DNA from: Rikenella microfusus
Lineage (GTDB): Bacteria; Bacteroidota; Bacteroidia; Bacteroidales; VadinHA17
Assembly (NCBI GenBank): GCA_022736275.1
Contig: DZBJ01000001.1
Coordinates: 62,001-126,000, forward strand
Reading direction: 5' to 3'
DNA: 64,000 nt
The notes below the pieces were generated by a model. That model did not search any database. It was not told the DNA's origin and saw only the letters and a program-made list of their open reading frames with translations. Below, piece by piece: positions 32,259 to 63,767 of this stretch. The translations under genes were made by a program, and so were the position numbers. The first letter of the stretch is position 1. Each line of letters begins with the position of its first letter.

Positions 32259-33722
32259 ATGAAAACCAATCGCCGGAATTTCCTGCGCACTGCAGTCGTT
32301 GCCGGAGCTGGCGCTGTCACAGCAGGCAGTGCGGCCTCATGCTCCCGTCGTGAAACCTCAAACGAGCTGATGCCGGAGATCAGAATGGCAGCCATGGCCG
32401 CTCATTCACAGAAGTTTAACATGTCCGGTTACGGGGCGCCTCCTCTTGATAAGGTGCGCATCGGCTTTATCGGGCTTGGGATGCGCGGTCCCGGTGCAGT
32501 TGAGCGTATGGCGCACATTGAGGGTGTGGAGATAGCTGCACTATGCGACAAGTATAGCGAGAGGGTGGAGAAGATGCAGTCAATGCTCACAAAATTCGGA
32601 CTGCCGCAGGCAAAAGCATTCAGCGGTACGGAGGAGGCGTGGAAAGGATTATGTGATGATAAGGATATTGACCTGGTTTACATATGCACCCCATGGGCGT
32701 GGCATACACCCATGGCCGTGTATGCAATGGAATCGGGGAAGCATGTGGCTGTAGAGGTGCCGGCAGCAAAAAGCGTTGATGAGTGCTGGCAACTGGTTGA
32801 GACTTCGGAACGGACCAAAATGCACTGCATGCAGCTTGAGAACTGCTGCTACGATTTCTTTGAGCTGCTGACACTCAATATGGCGCGCCAGGGTTTGTTC
32901 GGCGAAATTGTCCACGGGGAAGGGGCCTATATACACGATCTCCGCTGGGACTTTACATATGACAAAAACGGGTACGCCGATATGTGGCGCCTGAAGGAGA
33001 ATGTCAGGAACGGTAACCTCTATCCGACGCATGGCCTCGGGCCGGTGTGCCAGGTGATGAATATCAACCGGGGAGACAGGATGGAATATCTCACCTCCAT
33101 GTCAACCAACGACTTCGCAATGGCATTGGAGCTGAGTCAGCTTGCAAAGGAGGATCCGTTCTATGTTCCGTTTGCTGACAAGAAATACCGGGGCAACATG
33201 AACACCACCCTGGTGAGGACCGCCTTCGGAAGAACAATAATGATACAGCATGATGTTTCAAGCCCGAGGCCCTATTCGAGAATTCATCTCATCAGCGGCA
33301 CAAAGGGAGCTGCAAGCAAGTGGCCCTCACCGGCAAGGGTAGCACTGGGCCATTCATGGCTTAAGCCTGAGGAGCTTGCCGCTCTGGAGACTCAGTACAC
33401 GCCCGGCATTGTAAAGAGGGTGGGAGAGATGGCAAAGGAGATTGGTGGTCACGGAGGAATGGATTTCATCATGGACTGGAGGCTGATCGACTGCCTGCGC
33501 AACGGGCTGCCCGTTGATCAGGATGTCTATGACGCTGCCCTCTGGAGTGTCATTGCCCCTCTGACCGAGTGGTCCGTGGCCAACAGATCGTCATCAATTG
33601 ATATTCCTGACTTCACATGCGGTTCGTGGGAGCTCAACAAGCCCTTTGATCCGAATCTTTTACAGGGTGGAAATACGAAAGTACTTGGAATTCAGGGAAG
33701 TTCAAATCAGTTCGAAGTATAG
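32259..33722 (+). CDS. Gfo/Idh/MocA oxidoreductase of GH109 type (alpha-N-acetylgalactosaminidase-like)
   Basis: 487 residues. A Tat signal (NRRNFLRTAVVAGAGAVTAG) precedes a Rossmann domain (VRIGFIGLGMRGPGAVERM). GH109-like landmarks are CTPWAWHTPMAVYAMESGKHV, GEIVHGEGAYIHDLRW, GNLYPTHGLGPVCQ, MNINRGDRMEYL and SSPRPYSRIHLISGTKG. GH109 enzymes use NAD+ in a redox-elimination mechanism to release N-acetylgalactosamine, and the type member is from Bacteroidetes-like bacteria. The Tat signal implies export. It stands alone, with a 76-bp leader region upstream. Confidence 0.82.
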   Translation: MKTNRRNFLRTAVVAGAGAVTAGSAASCSRRETSNELMPEIRMAAMAAHSQKFNMSGYGAPPLDKVRIGFIGLGMRGPGAVERMAHIEGVEIAALCDKYSERVEKMQSMLTKFGLPQAKAFSGTEEAWKGLCDDKDIDLVYICTPWAWHTPMAVYAMESGKHVAVEVPAAKSVDECWQLVETSERTKMHCMQLENCCYDFFELLTLNMARQGLFGEIVHGEGAYIHDLRWDFTYDKNGYADMWRLKENVRNGNLYPTHGLGPVCQVMNINRGDRMEYLTSMSTNDFAMALELSQLAKEDPFYVPFADKKYRGNMNTTLVRTAFGRTIMIQHDVSSPRPYSRIHLISGTKGAASKWPSPARVALGHSWLKPEELAALETQYTPGIVKRVGEMAKEIGGHGGMDFIMDWRLIDCLRNGLPVDQDVYDAALWSVIAPLTEWSVANRSSSIDIPDFTCGSWELNKPFDPNLLQGGNTKVLGIQGSSNQFEV

Positions 33723-33785: not shown

Positions 33786-33804
33786 CGGGCAAATTACCAA
33801 TTTG

Positions 33805-35799
33805 ATGCTGAACGCCGTTTTGTTTCTGCTGGTATTATTCCTTTCATTACTGGTTTTCTTCATACCCCGATCACTCAGGTACTATTTTACCCTGGCGCTT
33901 CTGGTTTGCGGAGCCATCCTGACTTCGGCGTGGTCTGTATCGGTTCTGACCGGCGGTGAGCAGCTGCTTGAAATACCGCTGTTTGTCCCTGCGTCCGGCA
34001 GCAGCCTTACACTGGTCATCGACAGTCTCTCAGCCTTTTTCATCATTGTAATCAACATAACCGTTTTAACCGGACTTTTGTACGCCAGGGGGTACCTGGC
34101 ACCCTATTACCGGCGCAAAAGTCCGCTTCGTTTTTCAATTCATTATTTCTCCTACCTGTGGCTCTGGCTCTCGATGCTGATGGTAGTGATGATCCGTGAC
34201 GGACTCTCTTTCCTGATCGTCTGGGAGATCATGGCCCTCTCATCATTCTTTCTCGTGATCTTTGATGCTGAGGAGCGGTCAATACTGAAGACCGGAATCA
34301 GTTACCTGATACAGATGCATGTCGGGATGTTCTTCATCCTTATAGCTTTCCTTATTGTCGGGAAGGCCACGGGCCGCATGAGCTTTGATGTTCTTGGCGA
34401 ATATTTTTCAACCCACAGGAACCTGCCTCTCTTTCTCCTTTTCTTTACAGGTTTTGCCCTCAAGGCAGGGTTCATCCCGCTCCACACATGGCTCCCGGAG
34501 GCTCATCCCGCTGCGCCTTCTCATGTATCCGGAGTGATGTCGGGGGTAATGATCAAGATGGGTATTTACGGGATAGTGCGAGTGCTCATCGACATGCAGT
34601 CAGACCTGCTGGTGACCGGGGTCATCATACTCGTTATATCATTGATCTCCGGGGTTATGGGAGTGATGATGGCTATAATGCAGAATGATCTGAAGAGGTT
34701 GCTGGCTTACAGCACCATAGAAAACATAGGTATCATCGGTGCGGGAACAGGTCTTGGTGTCATAGGCATGGCACTGGGCAATCCGGCCCTGACCCTGCTG
34801 GGTTTTTCAGGAGGCCTGATGCACATCCTGAACCACTCACTGTTCAAATCGCTGCTCTTTTTTAATGCCGGGTCCGTCTGTCAGGCTTCGCACACTCCCA
34901 ACATTGAACATCTTGGCGGACTTATGAAGAGAATGCCATACACGGCGATACTCTTCCTGATCGGATCCCTTGCTATCTGCGGCCTGCCGCCATTTAACGG
35001 ATTTATATCCGAATACCTCATTTATATGGGGATGTTCCACAGTCTTTCCGGATCCACGCTGTTTCATTCTGTTCTGATCCTCGGATCAATCGTGGGGCTG
35101 TCGCTTATCGGAGGACTGGCGATTTTCTGCTTTACCAGGGCATTCGGAATTGTATTCCTCGGTGAACCCAGAACTGACAGGGCAATTCACGTCACTGAGG
35201 TATCGCGGGGAATGATCATCCCGCAGCTTCTGGCCGTGGCATTCATCCTTGTCATTGGTCTTGCATCGCCACTTGCCGTGAGGCCGGTTTTTGCGATTAC
35301 GGTTCAGACATTCGGGATTAATAATCCGATAATGGTCTCAGGCGCCTTTTTGACAAATCTTGCCCAGATCAGCATCATGGGCGGTGTCTTTGTGGTGACG
35401 CTCGTGGTTCTCCTGGTGTACCGGCACTACCATCTCAGAAGAAGAGTGGTGGAAAGGGCCCCCACATGGGGATGCGGATATACTGCCGGCACGGCACGGC
35501 ATCAATATACAGGCACCTCCTTTGCCTATAACTACAATCATGTTGCAAAACCTGTGCTTCAGACACGCAAGGTGATGGATGAGATCAGTGAAGATGAGAT
35601 TTTCCCTCGTAAGAGGAGCTTCGTTTCATACAGTGATGATTTCTTCAAGAAAATACTTATTGACATGCCGGTCGACTGGTTTTCAGGACTGCTGAAAAGA
35701 ATAGCTGTGATGCAGACAGGTCAGATACAGCACTATATACTTTATGCCTTTGTTTTCATGCTCCTTGTGTTACTCCTGGCAATACTGAACATTATCTGA
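33805..35799 (+). CDS. HyfB-like antiporter/proton-channel subunit of an Ehr-type complex
   Basis: 664 residues from ATG 33805 (a TTG just before it is unlikely). It is a NuoL/NuoN/MrpA-type protein with about 14-16 membrane helices. Charged residues expected in the proton channel are present: E141 in VWEIMALSS, K220 in FALKAGFIPLHTWLPEAHPA, K251 in VMIKMGIYGI and the HSLFKSLLF lysine. The C-terminal region has a soluble loop (RHQYTGTSFAYNYNHVAKP) also seen in HyfB/HycC-like subunits. First gene of a six-gene operon, 2 bp before the next. Confidence 0.87.
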   Translation: MLNAVLFLLVLFLSLLVFFIPRSLRYYFTLALLVCGAILTSAWSVSVLTGGEQLLEIPLFVPASGSSLTLVIDSLSAFFIIVINITVLTGLLYARGYLAPYYRRKSPLRFSIHYFSYLWLWLSMLMVVMIRDGLSFLIVWEIMALSSFFLVIFDAEERSILKTGISYLIQMHVGMFFILIAFLIVGKATGRMSFDVLGEYFSTHRNLPLFLLFFTGFALKAGFIPLHTWLPEAHPAAPSHVSGVMSGVMIKMGIYGIVRVLIDMQSDLLVTGVIILVISLISGVMGVMMAIMQNDLKRLLAYSTIENIGIIGAGTGLGVIGMALGNPALTLLGFSGGLMHILNHSLFKSLLFFNAGSVCQASHTPNIEHLGGLMKRMPYTAILFLIGSLAICGLPPFNGFISEYLIYMGMFHSLSGSTLFHSVLILGSIVGLSLIGGLAIFCFTRAFGIVFLGEPRTDRAIHVTEVSRGMIIPQLLAVAFILVIGLASPLAVRPVFAITVQTFGINNPIMVSGAFLTNLAQISIMGGVFVVTLVVLLVYRHYHLRRRVVERAPTWGCGYTAGTARHQYTGTSFAYNYNHVAKPVLQTRKVMDEISEDEIFPRKRSFVSYSDDFFKKILIDMPVDWFSGLLKRIAVMQTGQIQHYILYAFVFMLLVLLLAILNII

Positions 35800-35801
35800 A
35801 G

Positions 35802-36713
35802 ATGGCAGGATTTGTTCTGATAGTGATCGCAGCCTTTTTCTTCCCGGGAATAATTCTCAGGACGAAAAGCATTGCCTCCGGGCGCAAGGGACCTGGAATT
35901 CTTCAGCCGGTGAAGGATATTATTGTGCTGCTGAAAAAGGGAAGTGTCTTCAGCACAACCACGGGATTAATATTTCAGATCGCACCGGCTGTCACACTGG
36001 TGTCAGTCATCTGTGCCATGCTGCTGCTGCCTTTTGCAGAGCAGAGGGCCCTGCTCTCATTTGAGGGCGATTTTGTTCTCTTTGCATACCTGCTTGCTCT
36101 CGGCAAGTTTTTTACTGTAATTGCCGCGCTTGACACAGGCAGCAGCTTCGAAGGCATGGGAGCGAGCCGCGAAGCCTTTTTCTCACTCCTGGTGGAACCG
36201 GCATTTTTTATCCTGCTTGCCACATTTGCCATGTTCACTGGTTATACTTCATTCTCTGTAATTTTCAACCAGTTTTTTATAACCGGGAATGACTATGTGA
36301 TGATATACAGCATCATAGGTGTCTATCTGTTTATACAGATCGCCATGGTTGAAAACAGCAGGGTGCCGATTGACGACCCGAAAACGCACCTCGAACTGAC
36401 TATGATACACGAGGTGATGATACTTGATTACAGCGGATTTGACAAGGCCCTGATACATATCGGTACCTATCTTAAATTCGCGCTATACGGTTCCCTGATA
36501 TATAACCTGATCGTACCGGCAGGCTGGAACATATTCCTGCAGACAGGATTATTCCTTGCTGTCCAGGCGTTCTTTGCGGTGGTGATAGGACTTGCCGAAT
36601 CGTTCAGGGCAAGGAACAAGATGAATAAAAACCCGAAATTCATCCTGACATTATCAGCGATAGCATGGATAGCATTTACGGTCATTTTAATACTTACTGA
36701 CAAACTGGTCTGA
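35802..36713 (+). CDS. HyfC/NuoH-like membrane subunit of an Ehr-type complex
   Basis: 303 residues, about eight membrane helices. This subunit connects the soluble redox module to the membrane arm. Family landmarks are GILQPVKDIIVLLKKG near residue 32 and ENSRVPIDDPKTHLELTMIHE near residue 185, the conserved acidic loop at the entrance of the quinone/proton channel. It matches formate-hydrogenlyase subunit 4 rather than complex I NuoH in length. It is 2 bp after the HyfB-like gene and 6 bp before the HyfE-like gene. Confidence 0.88.
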   Translation: MAGFVLIVIAAFFFPGIILRTKSIASGRKGPGILQPVKDIIVLLKKGSVFSTTTGLIFQIAPAVTLVSVICAMLLLPFAEQRALLSFEGDFVLFAYLLALGKFFTVIAALDTGSSFEGMGASREAFFSLLVEPAFFILLATFAMFTGYTSFSVIFNQFFITGNDYVMIYSIIGVYLFIQIAMVENSRVPIDDPKTHLELTMIHEVMILDYSGFDKALIHIGTYLKFALYGSLIYNLIVPAGWNIFLQTGLFLAVQAFFAVVIGLAESFRARNKMNKNPKFILTLSAIAWIAFTVILILTDKLV

Positions 36714-36719
36714 AAGGAG

Positions 36720-37334
36720 ATGATAAACTATCTGATAGTCCTGTTCGCTATCACGCTGATGTACTTTTCATCGGCTGACAGGCTCATAACATATGTCAAG
36801 CTCATAGCGATCCAGGGACTTTTGCTTTGCGGCATTGCCATTTTCGAGCTAAAAGAGGTGAACACCCCGAACCTGCTCTTCATCGTTGCGGAAACATTGC
36901 TGTTCAAGACTCTGATCCTGCCCTGGCTACTGGCAAGAATACTACACCGTTCAGGTGTGACCAAGGTTCACCGGCTTGCCATGCCCGGATTCTATCTTCT
37001 GATATTTTCAATCTTTGGACTGCTGATAAGCGTCATCCTTGCAAAGATCCTTATCAATCCATATATCAATACCATCTACCTCGCCATAGCTCTCTTTACC
37101 CTTGTAACGGGACTGCTGCTGATTGTGACCCATAAACTGATAATCTCGCACCTTATTGGATTTCTGATAATTGAGAATGCGGTATTCATGTTCTCACTGG
37201 CTGTCGGGAGCGAGATGCCGATGCTTATCAACATCGGGATACTCCTTGATATTTTTGTCGGAGTACTGATTCTCGGTTTCTTCGGGCTGCGTCTCAAGCC
37301 TCATACCAACGAGCTGACTTTGTTAAAAGATTAG
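36720..37334 (+). CDS. HyfE/NuoK-like membrane subunit of an Ehr-type complex
   Basis: 204 residues, about seven membrane helices. The second half (THKLIISHLIGFLIIENAVFMFSLAVG) resembles NuoK/MrpC, with the conserved Glu in the LIIENAVF helix. HyfE proteins are a NuoK-like core with extra N-terminal helices, and the length fits. It lies inside the six-gene operon (6 bp upstream gap, 2 bp downstream gap). Confidence 0.83.
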   Translation: MINYLIVLFAITLMYFSSADRLITYVKLIAIQGLLLCGIAIFELKEVNTPNLLFIVAETLLFKTLILPWLLARILHRSGVTKVHRLAMPGFYLLIFSIFGLLISVILAKILINPYINTIYLAIALFTLVTGLLLIVTHKLIISHLIGFLIIENAVFMFSLAVGSEMPMLINIGILLDIFVGVLILGFFGLRLKPHTNELTLLKD

Positions 37335-37336
37335 AA

Positions 37337-38764
37337 ATGATGCTTTTGCTATTCTTTGTCATATCAGTGTTATTGAGTGCCTCGGCATTTCTGTTCAGAA
37401 ACAGGGCCGTGACCAGGATACTCACGCTTGCGTTTTCAGTGGTGCTTATCCTGTTTACGGTATATGGCTGGAGCAATCTGAATGAGACGGAGCTGGCTTA
37501 TTTTACCTTTGACAGCACAGGAGTACTCTTGCTGACAGTACTGGCTATCCTCTCCCTTCCTGCCATTTACCACGGATTTATTTATACGGCTGACGACAGT
37601 ACGAAGAGATACAATATTTATCATGCCGGACTGATAGCCCTTATGACTTTCATGGCAGGTGCCTATCTGGCCAACACGATGACTGTACTGTGGATCTTTG
37701 TGGAAGCCACTACCCTGGCCGTTGCCGTGCTCATATATCATGACCGTACGGAAATGGCCCTGGAGGCCGCGTGGAAATATGTCTTTATCTGCTCAACCGG
37801 TATCGCACTGGCTTACCTGGGCATCCTGTTCCTCGGATTTATTTATGGCCGGGGAGATGCCCCCAATCTTTCCTTTGAATCGTTCTCGATGGTCATCAGC
37901 AATGCCAGCCCGTTGTACCTGAAGATCTCCTTTATCTTCGTGCTGGTTGGATTCAGCACCAAGATGGGGCTCTTTCCGATGCATACTGTCACGATAGATG
38001 CCCATTCGGTTGCACCTCCGCCCGTAAGCGCCCTGATATCAACCACCCTGATGAATGTGGGATTCCTTGCCATCTTCCGTGTATATAAGTTATTCGCTTC
38101 AACGTCAGTTTTGCCGTTCATGAATCACGTTCTCATCCTGGCAGGATTGCTGTCGCTGCTGACAGCTGCGGGATACATGCTCAAGGCGAAGCACCTGAAA
38201 AGGATGCTGGCTTATTCGAGCCTTGAGAATATGGGTCTGGTAGCAATAGCCATTGGTGCGGGGGCGACAGGATACTATGCAGCACTGTTGCTCATCATTT
38301 TGCATTCCTTTGCCAAATCAAGTCTCTTCTACCAGATGGGACAGCTCTCAAGAATACTGCATACATTTAAGCTCGATGCATGCGGCAGGTACATGAAACT
38401 TTACCCTGCCGGCGCCATGGTGCTTCTGACAGGAATGATCTGCATCCTGGCGATTCCTCCGTCAGGATTGTTCATTTCCGAACTTATGATTTTCAGGGGC
38501 CTGGTTGGGAACGGACAGTGGTTTGTTCTTATCGTCTCGATAATATTACTGTGTTTCGTGATTTACGCCATGAGCATACGAATCATGCATATCACCTTCT
38601 CTGACCCCAGGGATGAGGAGGGATCAAAGTTGCCCGGTGCAGTGAGTCCGGTTGAGACGGTAAGCCAGTTTTTTCTTCTGGCAATCGTTATTATGCTATG
38701 CTTTTATCAGCCACCATTCCTGGCCGACATGATCAATCAGAGTTTTGCCATTCTTCCGAGATAA
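37337..38764 (+). CDS. HyfF-like antiporter/proton-channel subunit of an Ehr-type complex
   Basis: 475 residues, about 14 membrane helices, NuoN/MrpD type. Channel residues are present: Glu in WIFVEATTLAVAVLIYHD, Lys in FSTKMGLFPMHTVTIDAH, and Lys in HSFAKSSLF; MLKAKHLKRMLAYSSLENMG is the usual loop sequence. With the HyfB-like protein it supplies two putative proton paths. The next gene starts 5 bp after its stop. Confidence 0.87.
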   Translation: MMLLLFFVISVLLSASAFLFRNRAVTRILTLAFSVVLILFTVYGWSNLNETELAYFTFDSTGVLLLTVLAILSLPAIYHGFIYTADDSTKRYNIYHAGLIALMTFMAGAYLANTMTVLWIFVEATTLAVAVLIYHDRTEMALEAAWKYVFICSTGIALAYLGILFLGFIYGRGDAPNLSFESFSMVISNASPLYLKISFIFVLVGFSTKMGLFPMHTVTIDAHSVAPPPVSALISTTLMNVGFLAIFRVYKLFASTSVLPFMNHVLILAGLLSLLTAAGYMLKAKHLKRMLAYSSLENMGLVAIAIGAGATGYYAALLLIILHSFAKSSLFYQMGQLSRILHTFKLDACGRYMKLYPAGAMVLLTGMICILAIPPSGLFISELMIFRGLVGNGQWFVLIVSIILLCFVIYAMSIRIMHITFSDPRDEEGSKLPGAVSPVETVSQFFLLAIVIMLCFYQPPFLADMINQSFAILPR

Positions 38765-38769
38765 AGACA

Positions 38770-40290
38770 ATGAACCAACACACATATACAGAGGTTAATA
38801 ACGGTTCAGCACCGGTTCCGGTCAGGTCGACACCGGTTTTGAGTTATGGCCACTTTTATGATGAAGTTACAAAGCTGCTCGGCAGCGCATCAAATCACTG
38901 TATCTCATACTATTGTCATGATCTGTCTGACAGACTGAAGTTCATCTGCTGCATTGCCGATGATGAAACCGGAAGTATTAAGGTTCTAAGCCATGAAAAA
39001 AAGGCGGACGGCACACCGCTCAGGTCACTTACTGTCGACTGTCCGTCAGTGCATATCTTTGAGCGTGAGATACATGAAAATTTTGGCGTGGTATTCGAGG
39101 GGCATCCCTGGCTCAAACCTGTGAGATATCCGCATGACAGGGCTGACAGGCTCAGTGTTATGGACAATTATCCGTTTTATATCATTGATGGTGAGGAACT
39201 TCATGAGGTGGGAGTAGGGCCTGTACATGCAGGTGTGATAGAGCCGGGTCATTTCCGGTTCATCTGCAACGGAGAAAAGGTTCTGCACCTCGAGATACAG
39301 CTTGGATACCAGCACAGGGGTGTTGAGAGGATGTTAGCTGAGAAAAGCGAGGCTCTGCAGAGATGCATACTGGCTGAGAACATAGCCGGAGATACGGCAA
39401 CAGGTCACAACCTGGCCCATGTACAGCTTATTGAGTCTCTGGCAGGGATTGAAGTATATGAGGCTTTGCAGATTGAACGATGTATAGCCCTTGAGATGGA
39501 GCGGATTGCGGTACATATCGGCGACACGGCAGCGCTGTGCGGCGATGTTGCCTACCAGCTTGGACAGGTAACCTGCGAGGCTCTGAGAACAATGGTGATC
39601 AATACAACTCAGTCGTGGTGCGGTAACAGGTTCGGCAAAGGACTGATTCGTCCCGGCGGTTCGAATTACCCGCTGACTGGTGAGATGGCCGATGAGATAC
39701 TTGGGAATCTGGCTGACGTTGAAAGGCGGTACAGTAATGTCACAGATTGCATCTATTCACTTCCGAGCGTTCTCGGCAGGTTCGAAGACATTGGCACTGT
39801 TACACGGCAGCAGGCTACGGAGATCGGTGCAGTGGGAATGACTGCCCGCACATGTGGCATCATGCGCGATACACGCAAGACTCATCCCTTCCAGCACTAT
39901 AAGAATTTCCAAATTGATCCGGTCACTCTCGAAACAGGCGATGTTCTGGCACGTGGCATGCTGAGAGCCCTTGAGGTCAAAGCATCGGCAGGAATAATTC
40001 GTGGTTTGATCGATGCGTGGAGAAAGGCTGAAAAAACTGTGGGAAAGCCTGACTATGATCTCAGGCTCATTCCTGACAGCTTCGCAGTGTCAATGACGGA
40101 GGGATGGCGGGGCGAAATATGTCACACTGCAGTAACTGACAGCATGGGGAATATATCTCATTACAAAGTCAAGGATCCGTCACTGCATAACTGGCTGGCA
40201 CTGGCACTGGCGGTACGCAACCAGGAAATATCTGATTTCCCTGTGTGCAACAAGAGCTTTAACCTCTCATATTGCGGGCATGACCTGTAG
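38770..40290 (+). CDS. HyfG-like NuoC-NuoD fusion subunit lacking the [NiFe] cysteines
   Basis: 506 residues from ATG 38770. Residues ~25-125 are NuoC-like (FEREIHENFGVVFEGHPWLKPVRYP). Residues ~140-506 are a NuoD/hydrogenase large-subunit domain (VGPVHAGVIEPGHFRF, LEIQLGYQHRGVERML, FGKGLIRPGG). The N-terminal nickel motif CGIC is replaced: the aligned stretch reads AENIAGDTA with A206 and T209 where the cysteines should be. The C-terminal CxxC is replaced by S500 and G503 in NLSYCGHDL, and there is no cleavable tail. It cannot bind a normal [NiFe] centre. Related Ehr proteins are known but their reaction is not. Confidence 0.88.
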   Translation: MNQHTYTEVNNGSAPVPVRSTPVLSYGHFYDEVTKLLGSASNHCISYYCHDLSDRLKFICCIADDETGSIKVLSHEKKADGTPLRSLTVDCPSVHIFEREIHENFGVVFEGHPWLKPVRYPHDRADRLSVMDNYPFYIIDGEELHEVGVGPVHAGVIEPGHFRFICNGEKVLHLEIQLGYQHRGVERMLAEKSEALQRCILAENIAGDTATGHNLAHVQLIESLAGIEVYEALQIERCIALEMERIAVHIGDTAALCGDVAYQLGQVTCEALRTMVINTTQSWCGNRFGKGLIRPGGSNYPLTGEMADEILGNLADVERRYSNVTDCIYSLPSVLGRFEDIGTVTRQQATEIGAVGMTARTCGIMRDTRKTHPFQHYKNFQIDPVTLETGDVLARGMLRALEVKASAGIIRGLIDAWRKAEKTVGKPDYDLRLIPDSFAVSMTEGWRGEICHTAVTDSMGNISHYKVKDPSLHNWLALALAVRNQEISDFPVCNKSFNLSYCGHDL

Positions 40291-40307
40291 ATAACTGAAG
40301 CGCGATT

Positions 40308-41060
40308 ATGTTCAAGGAGATAAAGATACTTTCGGACCACGGCAAACAGTACATTCCTGACCTCAGAAACCAACCGGTCTCAGCGAGGTTCAGGGGCAGA
40401 CCGGTAATCTCTGCTGCAATAACCGGGGAGGAGATTGCCAGGGTTTCTTCCATTTGCCCTGTAAATGCCATTGACAGGCGCAACGGTTCAATTGACCTTG
40501 GCAGATGCACCTTCTGCAATGAGTGCGCACTGATGATACCCGGCACTATCAGATTTACAAATGATTACCGGATTGCGGCAAGCAGGAGGGACGATTTAAT
40601 TGTCAGGCCCGGCCAGACCGGACCTATGAGACTTAATGAGACCGCTGTCAGAAGTGATATCCGCCGTCTGTTCCGCAGGTCGCTGAAGCTCAGGCAGGTA
40701 TCTGCCGGAGGTGATAACTCCTGTGAAATGGAACTGACCGCAGCGGGGAATGTCAACTTCGATCTCGGGCGTTACGGCATTGAGTTCGTGGCTTCGCCGC
40801 GCCATGCAGACGGCATCGTAATTACAGGCCCGGTGACAGACAACATGTCTGAGGCCCTGGAAATTACCTATAAGGCAGTACCATCACCCAAGATCATTAT
40901 CCTTACAGGTACCGACGCCATCAGCGGAGGGTTGTTTGAAGGGAGTCCCGCCCTGAAACGCGGATTTACAGTCAGACACCCGGTTGATCTGTATGTTCCC
41001 GGAAACCCTGCCCACCCTCTGTCCTTCATCAACGGGGTCATGGATATGCTCGGACTCTAA
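40308..41060 (+). CDS. Fused ferredoxin/NuoB-like subunit with reduced Fe-S content
   Basis: 250 residues. Residues ~30-85 resemble the HyfH/NuoI two-cluster ferredoxin. Only C50 (SICPVNAI) and C67, C70, C73 (RCTFCNEC) remain, exactly the ligands of one [4Fe-4S]; G40, I43, V46 and I77 replace the ligands of the other. Residues ~130-250 are NuoB/HyfI-like (DLGRYGIEF, SPRHADGIVITGPVT, PVDLYVPGNPAHP). Of the four proximal-cluster ligands only C139 remains; D136, D203 and N233 occupy the others. The fusion and these losses make it unusual. It is the last gene of the operon, 17 bp after the HyfG-like gene. Confidence 0.82.
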   Translation: MFKEIKILSDHGKQYIPDLRNQPVSARFRGRPVISAAITGEEIARVSSICPVNAIDRRNGSIDLGRCTFCNECALMIPGTIRFTNDYRIAASRRDDLIVRPGQTGPMRLNETAVRSDIRRLFRRSLKLRQVSAGGDNSCEMELTAAGNVNFDLGRYGIEFVASPRHADGIVITGPVTDNMSEALEITYKAVPSPKIIILTGTDAISGGLFEGSPALKRGFTVRHPVDLYVPGNPAHPLSFINGVMDMLGL

Positions 41061-56578: not shown

Positions 56579-59500
56579 CTAATATCCTGCCCGTGTTTTA
56601 ACCACCTTCAGGGCGATACTCCTCCCTCCCTGGCTGATCCTGAGGGTGTAAACGCCAGAGGCAAGATGCCGGCAGTCGAACAGTATACTGTTCCTTTCGG
56701 AGGTAAGTCCTGGCGAGGATCTCAGCACAATCCTGCCGCCGGAGTCAATGAGTTCAGCAATGGTATTTTGCTCACCCTCAAAATCCATTTCAAGTATAAA
56801 GCTATCCCTGAAGGGATTGGGCAGTATCCTGACCGATTTATCAGGTATCTCAGTTCCGGTCCCGGATTTAATGAATGAAACAAATGCAGTATCATTTCCT
56901 GCGTATCCGTCTTCCGGCAGTCTGTTTATAATGTTAATCCTGTAGCCAACATCTGGCTGAAGGGTACATTTCTGAGTAAATGAAACCTCGACTGTGTCAC
57001 CCGGATCGATCTTTCTGAAGAAGGTTTCGTTGACCGGTTCACCGTCATTGATCCGGTATGCCAGGGGAAAACTTGTCAGGACATTCCTCCCGAAATTGAT
57101 GACGCGTCCGGATACGATTACATCAGTAAGTGCCGCCGAGGCGGAAGGGGGATAGACCGTATCAATGTGCATGTCAGCTTCAAGGAAAGAGATATCAGGG
57201 AATGTTATCTGGTCAATCCATGCGGCGTCAAGGCCTCCCGAAAGCGATACATCCTTTTTATAGATCCATTCGAGCAGATGAACACCAGGCTCGAGTGACC
57301 TCTTCCTCAATGCCCAGGGGGTGTCTCCGGAGATATGCATATCAACCACACTGTCAATCCTGAAGATGAACTCATCATATGTCGGTTCCGAGGAGACACG
57401 TGAATAGAAGGAGATGGTGTCGGCTACAGGATTGTTTACATAAATTGAAAGGACTGACTCACTCTTGTCAGGCACAGCCCCTGATCTTGCTGAACGTACA
57501 TTCTCATACGATGAGGAAGTAGTTATTGTCCAGGGATATTCATCGTTCTGCATCCAGGGGAAGACGTCAAACCTGTTAAACTCCCAGGTCTCACGGGTCT
57601 TTCCCGTGCTTATTGACCAGGTGCCTTCTGCTTCATAATGTCCGCAGACGAACCTGACATTGTACGGGATAACTGTTCCGGGCAATGCAAGGTCAGAGAT
57701 TACTGCCTCGAAGCTAACGGTTTTTTCCTCGCCGGGATTAACTGTCCCGGTTGGAAGCTCCATCGCTTTGAACGAAATCCATGGTCCTGCAGGAGTGGCT
57801 TTTACCTGTCCGGTGGCAGCCGATGAACCGATGTTTTTTACCTTTACATTCAGGTTTATTGTTTCACCCGCATCAGGCAGGAAATTGGAGTTGCCTGAAT
57901 TCAGGTCATCATGTACCGAAGAGATTATCCTGAGCTGCGGAGCCTGAAGGGTCATGTCGATGCCAGTCTTATACACATTGAAGTTGTCAGTCAGGCTTAG
58001 CAGGAGGGAAGCCAGTTCGCCGTCCTCCACCTGGTCTGATACGCTGAAGGTAAAACTGCCTGAGACTGTGAAGGATGCTCCGGGGAGCAGAGGTCCGATT
58101 GAGGCTGTTCCTGATTCAACGGTAATCATGCCTGATGTTGCCGAGATCTCTCCCTCCAGTTTAAGTGTCGGACTCTGACCGATGTTTTTAATGGTCAGCT
58201 TGAGATTAATGGTCTCCCCGTAGTCGGGTATGCCGTTACCGTTACCCTCTGAATCATCAAGAATAACATTCTCTATCGTAAGAAAGGGGCCGGAAACCGC
58301 ACCGAAATAAACTGTTTTCATGAAAGGCAGCTTGTTCTGACCGGTTATCACAAGCAGGCATGAGTCTTTCACGCCGGCGGGTATTGCAAGGGAGATATTT
58401 CCTGAGGGGCTTACATAACTGGCGTCCCAGAGCGTGTCAAAATCAGAGAGTGCCGCATATGAAAAGGGTTCTGTGAAGAAGCTGAGTGATTTCAGCTCCT
58501 GCGGTATGGTATGGGGAATCTCCACATCAAATTGCTCAGGCCTTCCGATCACAGGTGAGAGCGACGGGTCGCCAAGAAGAATATATGTCTCCCAGTAGTA
58601 TTTTTTACGGGGACTGGTACTGGCAGATACCGACAGATTGCCTGAGAAGTTTATCTGCCCCATGGTATGGTACCATTCACCAGGTGGCTCATCGTGAGTG
58701 TGGAACAGCCTGTCAAAGGCACCTCTCCCGGTAGCTCCATATGTCACATCCAGTGCCGGAGTTCCGGGACCGACAGCCCAGAAGAAGTCATCAACCCAGT
58801 AAGAGTCATTTGTGCATCCTATGTATCCGATGGCCCCCTTGCCGACTGCATTCACCATGGACGTTCCGAGACAGGGGAAGACGGAGATCTGTGCTGTCCG
58901 GCATGCATTGGCAATGACCAGCGGATATTCATTCTGGTTGGTCAGTTCGCTGACCAGTAATGCCCTTAGCTGAGGGTCGCTGAACCCTGCAGCCTCACCG
59001 TGCCCGGTGTAGTTGAGTATCCCAAGCCCCTTGTTTATAAGCAACTTGAGTGAATCATCCTTCTCCTGGGCCTGAGGATAGAGCCATCTTACCGCATTCA
59101 GTGAGGTGTCAGTGGCCAGGTAATTATTGTAGATGTATTGAACCTGACCATTCATGTAAAGTTCAAATCCGGGTGCATTGCCTGCGGTGGCAAGTGCCCC
59201 TGACCAGAAGTCATTTGTCGTATCGTAATTCCAGGTCTCATAGTCAATGATTTTTTTGACCATCCCCTTCAGTTGTGTGGTATCGGAAACGGGAAGGCGT
59301 CCGATGAAAAGTTCAGGGAAGTAATCACCATCACCATCGAACTCTCCATAATAGAGGTCTGATACATTCGATGTCCCTCTGGCTGTGGGTATGATTGACG
59401 GATCACCGGCGATAAGAAGATACTGAACCGGATTGCCTGCAACAAGAGAATTGGCATAGACCTCGGTAATCCTCTTCTTCAGATCCTGGTACACAGTGTC

Positions 59501-60325
59501 AGCCGGTCCGCTTCTCTTATAAATAACAGTTACGGGTAATCCCTTGAGCATCTTCCACCAGACAAGGGGTGTGAGATGTTTCCGGAAGATGGAATCGGTA
59601 ACTATTATCATCTGAACCGGTTTGTCAGTATAGCCAGGCACATATGCGTCCGACGCATAACCCCCTTTTTCACTTTTTACGGAACCCTCATCCTCCCCCT
59701 TTGTTAATGATGGTTCATACTTTATATCCATCACCATGGAGGTGATGAGGTCTACATAACCGCCCTTCGGATCGTAGAATGCCGGATGTACCGCAATGTT
59801 CGCCAGTTTGCGGCCTCTGTAAATGCCTTCATAGGTTATGACCACGGTATCATGTCCGATGATCCCTCTTGTTCCGTAAACCGTGCGGTCCTTGAAGGCA
59901 ACCTTCTCATCCTGTGCTTCGTTTTTGGTTTTAGCCGGTTGCGCGGGAAAGATTTCAGCCCCGACTGCTCCCTGGTCGCTGAATCTTATTCTGCGCGACG
60001 AGATGCCGGAGAGAGATACCCTGACCTCCATGCCCTCAGGCACTTCTGTCAGCTGGCTGTAGACCGGCAGTTCAGGCTGACCTGTCTCGGAGGTGTAATG
60101 GTGACCGGGAAGAAGCAACCGGATATATTTACCGGAAGGGTCTGTGATTCTTCTGAATTGAGGGGCTTCAGTGCGGTAAGAAACAACTGACGCATGGCGT
60201 GACGCTCTCTCTGCTGCACTCTCGCCGGAAGTCTTTCCGTCATGCCTCTGTCCATTCGCATTTGCTCCGCTGAAAACTAAAATAAAAACAGTCAGCAGAA
60301 CCATCGCTCTGTAAGTTACCCTCAT
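56579..60325 (-). CDS. Gingipain-like C25 cysteine protease with type IX secretion tail
   Basis: 1248 residues from ATG 60325 (signal peptide MRVTYRAMVLLTVFILVFSGANANGQ); a longer frame to 60367 would only prepend residues to this signal. After a propeptide-like region (~30-220) comes the C25 domain, with SDLYYGEFDGDGDYFPELFIGR, catalytic His442 in NYTGHGEA and Cys475 in IANACRTAQ. Several Ig-like/CARDB beta domains follow (about 690-1090). The last ~85 residues (ILPNPFRDSFIL to ALKVVKTRAGY) are a T9SS type A sorting domain. It is exported across the outer membrane and attached or released outside. Confidence 0.92.
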   Translation of the reverse strand: MRVTYRAMVLLTVFILVFSGANANGQRHDGKTSGESAAERASRHASVVSYRTEAPQFRRITDPSGKYIRLLLPGHHYTSETGQPELPVYSQLTEVPEGMEVRVSLSGISSRRIRFSDQGAVGAEIFPAQPAKTKNEAQDEKVAFKDRTVYGTRGIIGHDTVVITYEGIYRGRKLANIAVHPAFYDPKGGYVDLITSMVMDIKYEPSLTKGEDEGSVKSEKGGYASDAYVPGYTDKPVQMIIVTDSIFRKHLTPLVWWKMLKGLPVTVIYKRSGPADTVYQDLKKRITEVYANSLVAGNPVQYLLIAGDPSIIPTARGTSNVSDLYYGEFDGDGDYFPELFIGRLPVSDTTQLKGMVKKIIDYETWNYDTTNDFWSGALATAGNAPGFELYMNGQVQYIYNNYLATDTSLNAVRWLYPQAQEKDDSLKLLINKGLGILNYTGHGEAAGFSDPQLRALLVSELTNQNEYPLVIANACRTAQISVFPCLGTSMVNAVGKGAIGYIGCTNDSYWVDDFFWAVGPGTPALDVTYGATGRGAFDRLFHTHDEPPGEWYHTMGQINFSGNLSVSASTSPRKKYYWETYILLGDPSLSPVIGRPEQFDVEIPHTIPQELKSLSFFTEPFSYAALSDFDTLWDASYVSPSGNISLAIPAGVKDSCLLVITGQNKLPFMKTVYFGAVSGPFLTIENVILDDSEGNGNGIPDYGETINLKLTIKNIGQSPTLKLEGEISATSGMITVESGTASIGPLLPGASFTVSGSFTFSVSDQVEDGELASLLLSLTDNFNVYKTGIDMTLQAPQLRIISSVHDDLNSGNSNFLPDAGETINLNVKVKNIGSSAATGQVKATPAGPWISFKAMELPTGTVNPGEEKTVSFEAVISDLALPGTVIPYNVRFVCGHYEAEGTWSISTGKTRETWEFNRFDVFPWMQNDEYPWTITTSSSYENVRSARSGAVPDKSESVLSIYVNNPVADTISFYSRVSSEPTYDEFIFRIDSVVDMHISGDTPWALRKRSLEPGVHLLEWIYKKDVSLSGGLDAAWIDQITFPDISFLEADMHIDTVYPPSASAALTDVIVSGRVINFGRNVLTSFPLAYRINDGEPVNETFFRKIDPGDTVEVSFTQKCTLQPDVGYRINIINRLPEDGYAGNDTAFVSFIKSGTGTEIPDKSVRILPNPFRDSFILEMDFEGEQNTIAELIDSGGRIVLRSSPGLTSERNSILFDCRHLASGVYTLRISQGGRSIALKVVKTRAGY

Positions 60326-60449
60326 AACCTGTAAAGTCGTAGCTAAGATAACTAAAATTTCTCTCAAATAGAATGCCAGAGAAGGGTGGCGGCCAAATTC
60401 AATTTGAATTAGTATCTTTAACCTTAAATTCAGGGAAATTGTTCAGGGA

Positions 60450-63400
60450 ATGAGGAAGAGTTTTCTTCTTGCTTTTTTTCTTTTTTTAATCCATCTGACA
60501 GCCGGTTCTCAGATCAACAGGTCAGGTACACCCATGATCAGCTGGTTTGATGCTGCAGATACCCCGGGCGATCTCCTTAACCACTGTATCACCACGGATA
60601 AGCGCGGAGTAATGTATTTCGGAAACGAGTCATCCGGCATTGTCACATACGACGGAACAGCATGGGGACTAATACCCATGCTTACCACCCAGAGAGTGAA
60701 CGCACTGAATACCGATTACAGGGGTGTGGTTTATGCCGGCGGTGAGACTGATTTCGGCCTGCTGCAGCCTGATCTGACCGGCAGGATGAAATACAGTTCC
60801 CTTGCGGACCGGATAGCGGATTCGACGGCAAAAAGCGAGGTAGGGCCAATACTGGCAATAGACGCTGACAGCAGCAATGTGTACCTGACCGATGGGCGCA
60901 AGCTTTATATCGTTGATATTGAGAGTGATTCAGTGTCGGTGATAGAATTGGAGCGGGACTATGGACTGAACAGTGTCAGCAGGATACTGACCAGTTATGA
61001 AATGACAATCCTGGCCGATGACAGGCAGGGTCTCTTTGAGTACCGCGATGGCAAAATAACACCTTTACCTGGCGGAGAAAAGATCAGGATGGTCAGGTTT
61101 GCAGCACTTCTTTCCTATGACAGGGATAACATTCTGGTTGCCACTGCTGAGAGAGGTTTGGTTGTGTTCAACCACAGAACCGGAGTACTAAACAGCCAGT
61201 TTCTCGACAGGGCAGACAACAACAGGCTCAGAAATGGTCATGTAACAACTGCAGCTATTCTGCCCGGCAAAATGATAGCCGCCGGCCTGTCAGACGGTGG
61301 TGGGGTATATGTCTTCAGCCATGAAGGCAGGCTCCTTCACCATATATCTGACGAGACAACGAGTATAAGAGAATCCACAGTGACATCAATGTACTGTGAT
61401 TACGCTTCCAACTCCCAGCTCTGGTTCTGTACCAGGGGTTTCATAAACAGGGCATATGTCTCACTGCCTGCATATGAGTTTGGAAGTGCTGCCGGCATCG
61501 TTTCAATCCCGGAAGGTATAACGGAGTCAGGTGATTCAGTATTTGTGAGCACTGAAGACGGAATTTATAAAAACTATAGGGATAAGTCAGGTGTAGTAAG
61601 GTTCAGAAAGCTGGAAGAACCATCCGGAAGAATTAATGATCTCATCAGTATCAGGTTACCGGAAGGCGGGGTGCTGATGGCTGCCTCTTCCGATGGTCTA
61701 TGGCAGACAGACAATGAGGGTTATGCGACCCGTATTCTTGGCCGTGTGCATCTGACGGCGTTGGAATCAGACAAAAGTGAATCCACAATACTTATGGCAG
61801 GTTCTGATGATGCCAGGATAAGAACGCTGATTTATTCGGATGAGGAGTGGAGTGTTGTCAACATCAGTGGCAGCGATGATCTGTGCGGTAAGGTGAAGGA
61901 GATAGAGCAGTTGGGAGATAACGACTGGTGGATACTGACAACGTCACCGGCCTCACTTGTCGTAATGCGTTGCGGCAGATCAGATACCACATTCATAAAA
62001 TATGACGGCGATCGCGGCGTCATATCTGACACCCTTAACCATATCGTCACCATTGATGATAAGCTGTATGTCTGTACTGGAAGGGGCCTCTGGTGCTACA
62101 ACAGTGACAGTGACTCGTTCGAGACGGATCATGACCTCATCGGGAACACCTTTGACAATGTTCTGATAAGTAATCTCTTCAAAACTCCGGAAGGCGATAT
62201 ATTCCTTACGGGTTTTGATATCCGTAATTTTGATGCCCTCGTAACAGCTACACGGCAAGGTCATGTGGTATTCAAAAGACAGTTCGACTTCCTGCCCGAT
62301 ATTGTCACCAGGTGCGTTGCATATGTATACGGTAATATCTGGATAGCAAAGGGACAGAGTATTTTTATTATCGACAAATCAAAGCTGGGATTCAGCTACG
62401 GAGCCTTTACAACCTTCTTCACACGTATCACCGCCGGTGATGCGAATATGAATGTAGAGGGCTCTTTTTACAATGATTCTCCGGCGGGAATAAGAATTCC
62501 GTCTGTTGTGCAGCCCGATAACCAAAAACCAGCACTCAGAAGAAGCAGCAATAACATTACATTCAGATGGACTTCCACTTCGTATGTAGGTGAGGGAAAG
62601 ACTGAATACCGGTACAGACTTGATGAATTTAACACTGACTGGTCACGGTGGGAAAGACGGACAGACAAGGAATATATGAACCTTCCTTCGGGAGACTATG
62701 TATTCAGGCTGAAATCAAAGACCATCACGGGGCTTGAAAGTGATGAAATAACCTATACATTCTCGGTCAGAAAACCATGGTTCTCCTCACTGGTGACCAT
62801 TACCTTCTATGTTCTGGCAGCTGCAGCATTATTCTATTACTTAATAAGGCATTATGCCCGTAGGCTGAAAGTCAGGAATACGCGTCTGAGGGATCTCATG
62901 AAGCAACATACGGAGGCTGCGGAAAAGGCTAAGGGAGAAATGGCAGTTTTGGAGCAATATGCCGGAACAATACAGCAGGCACTGATGCCCTCTGAAAAGA
63001 TACTGTTCGATGCTGTCCGCAACAGTTTCATCCTCAACAAACCAAAGAATGCAGTCAGTGGTGACTTTTACTGGATGGCACGCAGAGGCGACAGTTTTTT
63101 TACTGCCGTGGGAGACTGGACCGGTCATGGCGTTCCTGCGGCACTAAACACCCTCATGGGACTCTCTTTTCTTGATGAGATCGGCAACAGGCAGATTGCG
63201 CTCAGGACCTCGGTTATCATGAGCGAATTCCGGAGAAAACTGATCGCCGCACAGAAACGATCCGGCATGACTGAAGGATTGCAGGCAGGTATAATAATTG
63301 GCTTGCTGGCGATTGACAGGGTGAACGGTTCAGTCGGCTTTTCAGGAGCCGGAGCCCAGTGTTTCAGAGTGAGGGAAATGAGTGAGGAGGAGCTGGAGAG

Positions 63401-63767
63401 ATGGAACAGGGGTGAAATGGCTGATGACGAAGGCATCCTGGCAAACGGCAAGTACATGCTTGAAACTATTTATGGCGACAGGGTTCCGGAGGTAATGCAC
63501 TCGAAGACCGACAGGGAATTTACGCAGCATGAATGGAAACTTGCGAAGAATACCTCGTATTATCTGTTCACTGATGGCTACAGTGACCAGTTCAATGGCG
63601 TCAGCGGCAAGAAATTCATGAAGAAGAACTTCAGGAAGCTGATACTGGATATTCAGAATTATCCGATGAGCAAACAGAAGGAGATGCTCGAAGGGCGATT
63701 AAAGAGCTGGATGGGATCCTCACCGCAGACAGATGATATTCTGGTTGTCGGGTTCAAAATAGAATAG
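60450..63767 (+). CDS. Sensor phosphatase: periplasmic beta-propeller, Y_Y_Y domain, membrane helix and SpoIIE (PP2C) domain
   Basis: 1105 residues. A signal peptide (1-20) precedes about 650 residues of seven-bladed-propeller-like repeats (VMYFGNESSGIVTYDGTAWG, VVYAGGETDFGLL and so on). A Y_Y_Y domain (about 690-773, FRLKSKTITGLESDEITYTFSV) follows, then one membrane helix (about 780-802), a coiled coil, and a SpoIIE domain from about 860: NAVSGDFYW, AVGDWTGHGVPAA and YLFTDGYSDQFNG, with the metal-binding Asp residues intact. It has the outside of a hybrid two-component sensor but a Ser/Thr phosphatase inside, so it probably signals by dephosphorylating an anti-sigma-factor antagonist. Confidence 0.9.
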   Translation: MRKSFLLAFFLFLIHLTAGSQINRSGTPMISWFDAADTPGDLLNHCITTDKRGVMYFGNESSGIVTYDGTAWGLIPMLTTQRVNALNTDYRGVVYAGGETDFGLLQPDLTGRMKYSSLADRIADSTAKSEVGPILAIDADSSNVYLTDGRKLYIVDIESDSVSVIELERDYGLNSVSRILTSYEMTILADDRQGLFEYRDGKITPLPGGEKIRMVRFAALLSYDRDNILVATAERGLVVFNHRTGVLNSQFLDRADNNRLRNGHVTTAAILPGKMIAAGLSDGGGVYVFSHEGRLLHHISDETTSIRESTVTSMYCDYASNSQLWFCTRGFINRAYVSLPAYEFGSAAGIVSIPEGITESGDSVFVSTEDGIYKNYRDKSGVVRFRKLEEPSGRINDLISIRLPEGGVLMAASSDGLWQTDNEGYATRILGRVHLTALESDKSESTILMAGSDDARIRTLIYSDEEWSVVNISGSDDLCGKVKEIEQLGDNDWWILTTSPASLVVMRCGRSDTTFIKYDGDRGVISDTLNHIVTIDDKLYVCTGRGLWCYNSDSDSFETDHDLIGNTFDNVLISNLFKTPEGDIFLTGFDIRNFDALVTATRQGHVVFKRQFDFLPDIVTRCVAYVYGNIWIAKGQSIFIIDKSKLGFSYGAFTTFFTRITAGDANMNVEGSFYNDSPAGIRIPSVVQPDNQKPALRRSSNNITFRWTSTSYVGEGKTEYRYRLDEFNTDWSRWERRTDKEYMNLPSGDYVFRLKSKTITGLESDEITYTFSVRKPWFSSLVTITFYVLAAAALFYYLIRHYARRLKVRNTRLRDLMKQHTEAAEKAKGEMAVLEQYAGTIQQALMPSEKILFDAVRNSFILNKPKNAVSGDFYWMARRGDSFFTAVGDWTGHGVPAALNTLMGLSFLDEIGNRQIALRTSVIMSEFRRKLIAAQKRSGMTEGLQAGIIIGLLAIDRVNGSVGFSGAGAQCFRVREMSEEELERWNRGEMADDEGILANGKYMLETIYGDRVPEVMHSKTDREFTQHEWKLAKNTSYYLFTDGYSDQFNGVSGKKFMKKNFRKLILDIQNYPMSKQKEMLEGRLKSWMGSSPQTDDILVVGFKIE

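Follow-up and report, generated by a model that had tools for sequence, protein, structure and literature searches.

The 64,000-nucleotide stretch of Rikenella microfusus DNA analyzed here (the window; positions 62,001 to 126,000 of contig DZBJ01000001.1) carries on its forward strand, at 33802–41060, a six-gene operon of the ehrABCDLS type, encoding an energy-converting hydrogenase-related (Ehr) complex. Ehr complexes without a [NiFe] center are already known; the element that appears to be new is the loss of N2, the proximal cluster of the small subunit. A large clade of homologs lacks N2 yet retains the pump arm and the proton-side residues of the former [NiFe] pocket, which provides a natural dissection of redox–pump coupling. 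It opens to experiment the long-debated question of whether the pump half depends on electrons or responds simply to altered charge or shape at the pocket. Such a pump must either work without the customary electron chain or be wired in a new way. The reading that we prefer, and to which we give about an even chance, is that of an ion-translocating Ehr whose pocket would be driven by protonation, a ligand, or conformation, with no electron relay through N2.

Organization and identity of the operon

All six genes are intact and lie on the same strand, separated by gaps of 2, 6, 2, 5, and 17 bp. Family searches assigned their products to HyfB, HyfC, HyfE, HyfF, a NuoCD/HycE-like protein, and a NuoB/HycG-like protein, in agreement with the first-pass annotation of this DNA, which had described six tightly packed genes of these types and had related them to Ehr. 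The genes are ehrA (33802–35799; HyfB/NuoL-like antiporter subunit, 665 amino acids when read from the TTG at 33802), ehrB (35802–36713; HyfC/NuoH-like, 303 amino acids), ehrC (36720–37334; HyfE-like, 204 amino acids), ehrD (37337–38764; HyfF/NuoN-like antiporter subunit, 475 amino acids), ehrL (38770–40290; NuoCD/HycE-like large subunit without any [NiFe] ligand, 506 amino acids), and ehrS (40308–41060; a ferredoxin fused to a NuoB/HycG-like small subunit, 250 amino acids). The likelier start of ehrA is the ATG at 33805, because the resulting 664 amino acids are the length found in most relatives. For ehrL, the longest open reading frame (ORF), from 38698, begins too early, and the start was placed at 38770.

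The same gene set and order, with NuoL/NuoN-like antiporter subunits, is known from Methylacidiphilum and Geobacter (PMC6688271), and the same six subunits, likewise without the [NiFe] CxxC motifs, are encoded by Rv0082–Rv0087 of Mycobacterium tuberculosis. Ehr complexes have been described as hydrogenase-like subunits lacking these motifs (PMC6349859, PMC7304191, PMC10284858), and both are gone from this group 4 hydrogenase homolog, which separates it from the group 4 [NiFe] hydrogenases proper. The literature assigns no function to Ehr. A formate dehydrogenase partner (PMC6349859), a link to formate in Geobacter (PMC7894505), and a role in pH homeostasis (PMC6688271) have been suggested, and ion translocation coupled to a cytoplasmic reaction has been proposed. 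Members of the family occur in M. tuberculosis, in Geobacter, and in numerous bacteria of the gut and soil, and the N2-less forms give a sharp comparative handle on it.

The window has a single ehrA. Many N2-less operons (L042, L062, L067, L068, L072, L076, L089, and others) have two tandem ehrA (HyfB-like) genes, which recall the naming of EhrA-1 in Geobacter.

The N2 site of the small subunit

The N2 ligand positions were set by aligning EhrS to HycG and MbhJ of solved structures. Ligand 1 is an Asp within the motif D136-N-S-C139 (40713–40724), in which C139, ligand 2, is kept; ligand 3 is D203 (40914–40916) and ligand 4 is N233 (41004–41006), all on the forward strand. The ferredoxin part lacks the CxxCxxxC of its second cluster, so that one of two clusters is left. 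The alignments thus bore out the earlier observation that both [NiFe] CxxC motifs, one ferredoxin cluster, and three of the four N2 ligands are missing. The sole [4Fe-4S] motif remaining, C50...C67-x2-C70-x2-C73 (40455–40526, forward strand), is N6b-like; by the usual cross-ligation in 2[4Fe-4S] ferredoxins, we take C50 together with C67, C70, and C73 to form one complete cluster, the one nearest to N2.

Although N2 is usual among Ehr complexes, it apparently forms no part of their definition in the publications consulted. No Ehr, nor any other member of the complex I superfamily, without a proximal cluster was described in the open literature searched, which did not include two defining Ehr papers. 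All characterized members (MBH, MBS, formate hydrogenlyase, and complex I) retain the proximal cluster, the one redox site never missing among them (PMC9474812, PMC7684303, and general background on the superfamily).

The fold, as modeled, is retained despite the loss. With an alignment of 71 rows, AlphaFold2 produced a confident model of EhrS (predicted local distance difference test, pLDDT, 95.7), while an alignment of 10 rows gave a poor one (pLDDT 55). The C-terminal domain of the confident model resembles HycG of formate hydrogenlyase (Z 15.7, root mean square deviation 2.2 over 138 residues).

Distribution and origin of the N2 loss

Of 21 other genomes of the host genus, many of which are incomplete, 13 yielded the small subunit and one more a fragment of it. 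The three N2 cysteines are gone in every one whose sequence was read, so the possibility raised at the outset, that close relatives might keep them and expose a single-genome artefact, found no support. A scan of GTDB genomes gave at least 80 loci, among the matches listed in Bacteroidota, Gastranaerophilales, Ignavibacteria, Aminicenantes, Spirochaetia, Lentisphaeria, Elusimicrobia, and Comamonadaceae. When these were combined with the loci from whole-genome searches and duplicates were removed, 121 distinct fused small subunits remained. Ligands 1, 3, and 4 are missing from 74 of them, 47 have all four, and there is no intermediate. In the N2-less rows, the replacement is Asp at ligand 1 (72/74), Asp at ligand 3 (73/74), and Asn at ligand 4 (73/74), and the second cysteine is kept in 60 and absent in 14. 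Departures from this set are seen in L086 (E,H,D,N), L087 (A,D,D,N), and L095 (D,D,H,S). In contrast, the phylum to which the Rhodoferax metagenome-assembled genome (MAG) belongs gave C/C/C/C in each of the 30 small subunits read, and N2 is kept in every plasmid or Pseudomonadota homolog that was read (from Rhizobium, Azospirillum, Cupriavidus, Variovorax, and others). Judged from these alignments, a pattern shared by 74 of 121 homologs is far beyond chance.

The near-fixed Asp at two of the four positions raises the possibility that the N2 site still houses a [4Fe-4S] cluster with Asp, Cys, Asp, and Asn as its ligands, and Asp does ligate [4Fe-4S] clusters in some ferredoxins. Three non-Cys ligands would be unusual, however, Asn is a poor ligand, and the remaining Cys is itself absent in the 14 rows mentioned; we therefore regard such a cluster as very improbable.

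Phylogenetic analysis placed the N2-less rows in essentially one clade, mostly of Bacteroidota. In a tree of concatenated small and large subunits, from which the four N2 columns had been removed, 51 N2-less fused rows formed a single clade (Shimodaira–Hasegawa-like approximate likelihood ratio test, SH-aLRT, 100) nested among N2-bearing ones. In a second tree, with more rows and with the ferredoxin columns removed too, 64 of 65 N2-less rows formed one clade (SH-aLRT 86), the remaining one, L095, grouping at the base with the N2-bearing L186 (84). These topologies fit a loss of N2 that occurred once, or twice near the base of the clade. Both ferredoxin clusters are present in L095 and in the two N2-bearing rows closest to the clade, L218 and L186, and therefore the ancestor of the clade probably had a full electron wire. 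L095 itself has lost N2 but neither of its ferredoxin clusters; the outer ferredoxin cluster has also been lost independently in several N2-bearing lineages.

The N2-less operons appear to be under purifying selection. The ratio of nonsynonymous to synonymous substitutions (dN/dS) was 0.02–0.13 in all six genes wherever a calculation was possible, values that are only indicative because synonymous sites are saturated in the more distant pairs. A degenerate or artefactual operon without function might be suggested by the absence of several classes of metal ligand; it is in effect refuted by six intact genes, a gene order conserved among homologous loci, this dN/dS, and the same replacements in 74 distinct homologs. 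Sequencing error and pseudogene formation were rejected on the last two grounds.

A second loss of N2 was found in an Ehr operon (L045; G047:C386, 536–7752) on an 8.4-kb contig from another Bacteroidales MAG. Its small subunit is encoded by a separate first gene and has D/C/D/D at the N2 positions, no ferredoxin gene is present on the contig, and the pump residues and the Ehr pocket signature are retained. If the contig is sound, this would possibly be an Ehr without any visible redox cofactor. The loss seems independent of that in the main clade, but its position in the tree is unsure because of a long branch. No further operon of this kind was found among 99 relatives of that genome.

Absence of a substitute small subunit in the host

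A second copy of the missing subunits elsewhere could have explained their absence here. The host assembly, which is 96% complete, contains two other complex-I-type sets, a Nuo set on contig C71 and, on contig C47, an Mbh-like [NiFe] hydrogenase whose CxxC motifs are intact and which is accompanied by a HycI protease. Each has its own small subunit within its own cluster. No stray N2-bearing small subunit for the ehr operon was detected in the assembly, and this explanation was rejected. The first-pass annotation had also remarked that the window has no hyp genes; this says little, because the host [NiFe] hydrogenase and HycI protease lie elsewhere and such maturation genes would be dispensable for an Ehr.

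The former [NiFe] pocket and the membrane arm

EhrL was compared with HycE in the E. coli formate hydrogenlyase structure. All four [NiFe] cysteines are gone: the N-terminal CxxC is replaced by A206 and T209 within A206-G-D208-T209 (39385–39396), and C531 and C534 of the C-terminal CxxC by S500 and G503 within N494-K495-S-F-N-L-S500-Y-C-G503-H-D505-L (40249–40287), both on the forward strand. What stands in their place is a signature, D208, N494, K495, S500, G503, and D505, that is invariant in 52 N2-less and 31 N2-bearing rows. The proton-side residues, mapped with PMC9474812, are nearly as constant in the N2-less rows: E158 (39241–39243, forward strand), the counterpart of the proton-donating HycE E193, in 52/52, H249 (HycE H284) in 50/52, R360 (R395) in 49/52, E402 (E437) in 51/52, and R447 (R478) in 52/52. 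In hydrogenase and complex I, the equivalent residues act on the proton side (PMC9474812). Only one column of the large subunit, residue 43, cleanly splits N2-less from N2-bearing proteins, and it lies outside the pocket motifs. As far as the aligned residues tell, N2-less and N2-bearing proteins have the same pocket.

The membrane arm likewise retains every recognized key residue of the ion (proton-pumping) pathway. EhrA keeps E142, K221, K252, H341, H345, K349, and E404, EhrD keeps E123, K209, K288, and K327, and the conserved acidic residues of EhrB are retained; the key Lys, Glu, and His residues of the membrane subunits are kept in N2-less and N2-bearing groups alike. K221 of EhrA, the Lys of transmembrane helix 7, is absent from HycC of formate hydrogenlyase.

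The description of a "dismantled redox arm" given in the first-pass annotation therefore stands only in part. The cysteine losses are real, but the peripheral arm is conserved, with an invariant pocket signature and its last [4Fe-4S] kept, and N2 has been exchanged for a fixed Asp/x/Asp/Asn set rather than randomly lost.

Possible modes of coupling

In complex I, the steps from N6b to N2 and from N2 to the pocket each measure roughly 12–14 Å, and a direct jump of ~25 Å from N6b to the pocket is too long for useful electron tunneling. With N2 gone and the last cluster presumably beyond tunneling range, we infer that the usual electron relay is not used. No known electron path leads from the remaining cluster to the former [NiFe] pocket, which supports the initial view that an obvious path is lacking. 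The first-pass annotation had suggested that the complex may couple ion movement to another reaction or to conformational sensing. An identical pocket in N2-bearing and N2-less forms suggests most simply that the process taking place there needs no electrons arriving through N2 and acts on the membrane arm through charge or conformation. Under our preferred reading, coupling would start at the EhrL pocket when it is protonated, binds a ligand, or changes conformation; the signal would pass through EhrB and the E-channel/loop system, and would drive or gate H+ or Na+/H+ movement through EhrA and EhrD. The last [4Fe-4S] may be structural, or may sense or dock a partner. We put forward only tentatively the broader proposal of a widespread complex-I-type pump that would move ions without electron transfer in the peripheral arm, its pocket being non-redox and its N2 converted into a conserved Asp/Asp/Asn site.

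Several points weigh against a non-redox mode. The N6b-like motif is present in all full-length homologs, including 73 of the 74 N2-less rows, and is missing only from a truncated protein; this exceeds what would be expected of a spare structural site and fits redox use. The near-fixed Asp/Asp/Asn replacements could hold a different cofactor, the tunneling argument is built on distances in known structures rather than in this complex, and the L045 case rests on a single contig. The main rival, which we consider rather unlikely, is accordingly a rewired redox enzyme, in which electrons would enter the remaining [4Fe-4S] and leave through another cofactor, or an acceptor docked elsewhere, N2 having been exchanged and not abandoned. 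A flavin, a quinone, or a metal held by D136, D203, and N233 are the candidates. Besides the constancy of motif and replacements, Asp recurs at the N2 positions in the independent case L045, and the host has the futalosine-pathway genes for making menaquinone. However, the identical pocket gives no sign of a new cofactor site there, the early N2-less rows L086 and L087 vary at positions 136 and 139, and the L045 operon has no ferredoxin gene.

Comparison with known systems

The complex shares its gene order with the ehrABCDLS systems and its pocket signature with the N2-bearing homologs. These (the 47 fused forms and the Pseudomonadota types) keep four N2 cysteines and the N2-less clade does not. 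E. coli Hyc and Hyf (formate hydrogenlyase and hydrogenase-4) and Pyrococcus furiosus MBH have homologous subunits and share the small-subunit fold and the proton-side residues of the large subunit, but the complex studied here has no [NiFe], no N2, and one ferredoxin cluster instead of two, and its EhrA, unlike HycC, keeps the Lys of helix 7. P. furiosus MBS is likewise group-4-like, without [NiFe] and with an antiporter-like arm. Catalysis in MBS takes place at the proximal [4Fe-4S] itself (PMC7684303), the cluster that is gone here. Respiratory complex I has a homologous membrane arm and NuoB/NuoCD-like subunits. The ehr operon, in contrast, encodes no NADH module, no input module for F420H2 or ferredoxin, and no chain ending in N2, and in its pocket a hydrogenase-like Glu replaces the His of the β1–β2 loop.

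A precedent for a NuoL-like subunit at work without electron transfer is the inorganic-carbon complex DAB2 (PMC13144422), in which a proton-conducting subunit of this type is coupled to something else. The ehr operon has NuoB/NuoCD-like subunits where DAB2 has DabA; no DabA was found in the operon or in the flanking genes tested, the rest of the genome not having been searched for it.

Gene neighborhoods

No partner gene recurs beside the N2-less operons, and therefore guilt by association yielded little. SulP genes adjoin 8 N2-bearing and 2 N2-less operons (among them L086:10869–12542, L087:5998–8743, L186:6611–8371, and L126:846–2573), and in L087 the SulP gene is followed by a sub-threshold carbonic anhydrase match. 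Together with the DAB2 precedent and the pH homeostasis proposed for an Ehr (PMC6688271), this could point to an inorganic-carbon or pH device, in which proton flow through the membrane arm would be coupled, in a DAB-like manner and with SulP, to CO2/bicarbonate chemistry or pH homeostasis. We judge it improbable: SulP occurs at only 2 of 62 N2-less loci, a zinc-site signature was not found in the operon, and SulP is absent from the host assembly, so that it is no general requirement.

A gene with a PTS (phosphotransferase system) EIIA-2 domain lies directly upstream of 18 of 47 N2-bearing loci and of none of 62 N2-less ones (L126:2654–3325, L132:2974–3684, L191:2534–3208, and 15 others). An HTH_17 domain was found in one of the two proteins tested, that of L132. 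The EIIA-2 protein is likely a regulator that was lost along with N2.

Directly upstream of the operon in the window is a gene for a GH109-like GFO/IDH/MocA oxidoreductase (32259–33722, forward strand), a neighbor kept in most of the genus and not in other families. Plasmid-borne Ehr operons that keep N2 were found on Rhizobium leguminosarum plasmid pRltTA1A (L221:1981–10590) and at L222, both lacking a ferredoxin gene, preceded by a small helix-turn-helix gene, and followed by a DUF4365 gene; they are a possible culturable system for work on Ehr. Elsewhere in the window are a 1493-amino-acid ORF (4688–9169, reverse strand) with no Pfam match at E 1e-8, a gingipain-like C25 peptidase of 1262 amino acids (56579–60367, reverse strand) and, divergent from the peptidase gene, a gene for a Y_Y_Y/SpoIIE-domain protein of 1105 amino acids (60450–63767, forward strand).

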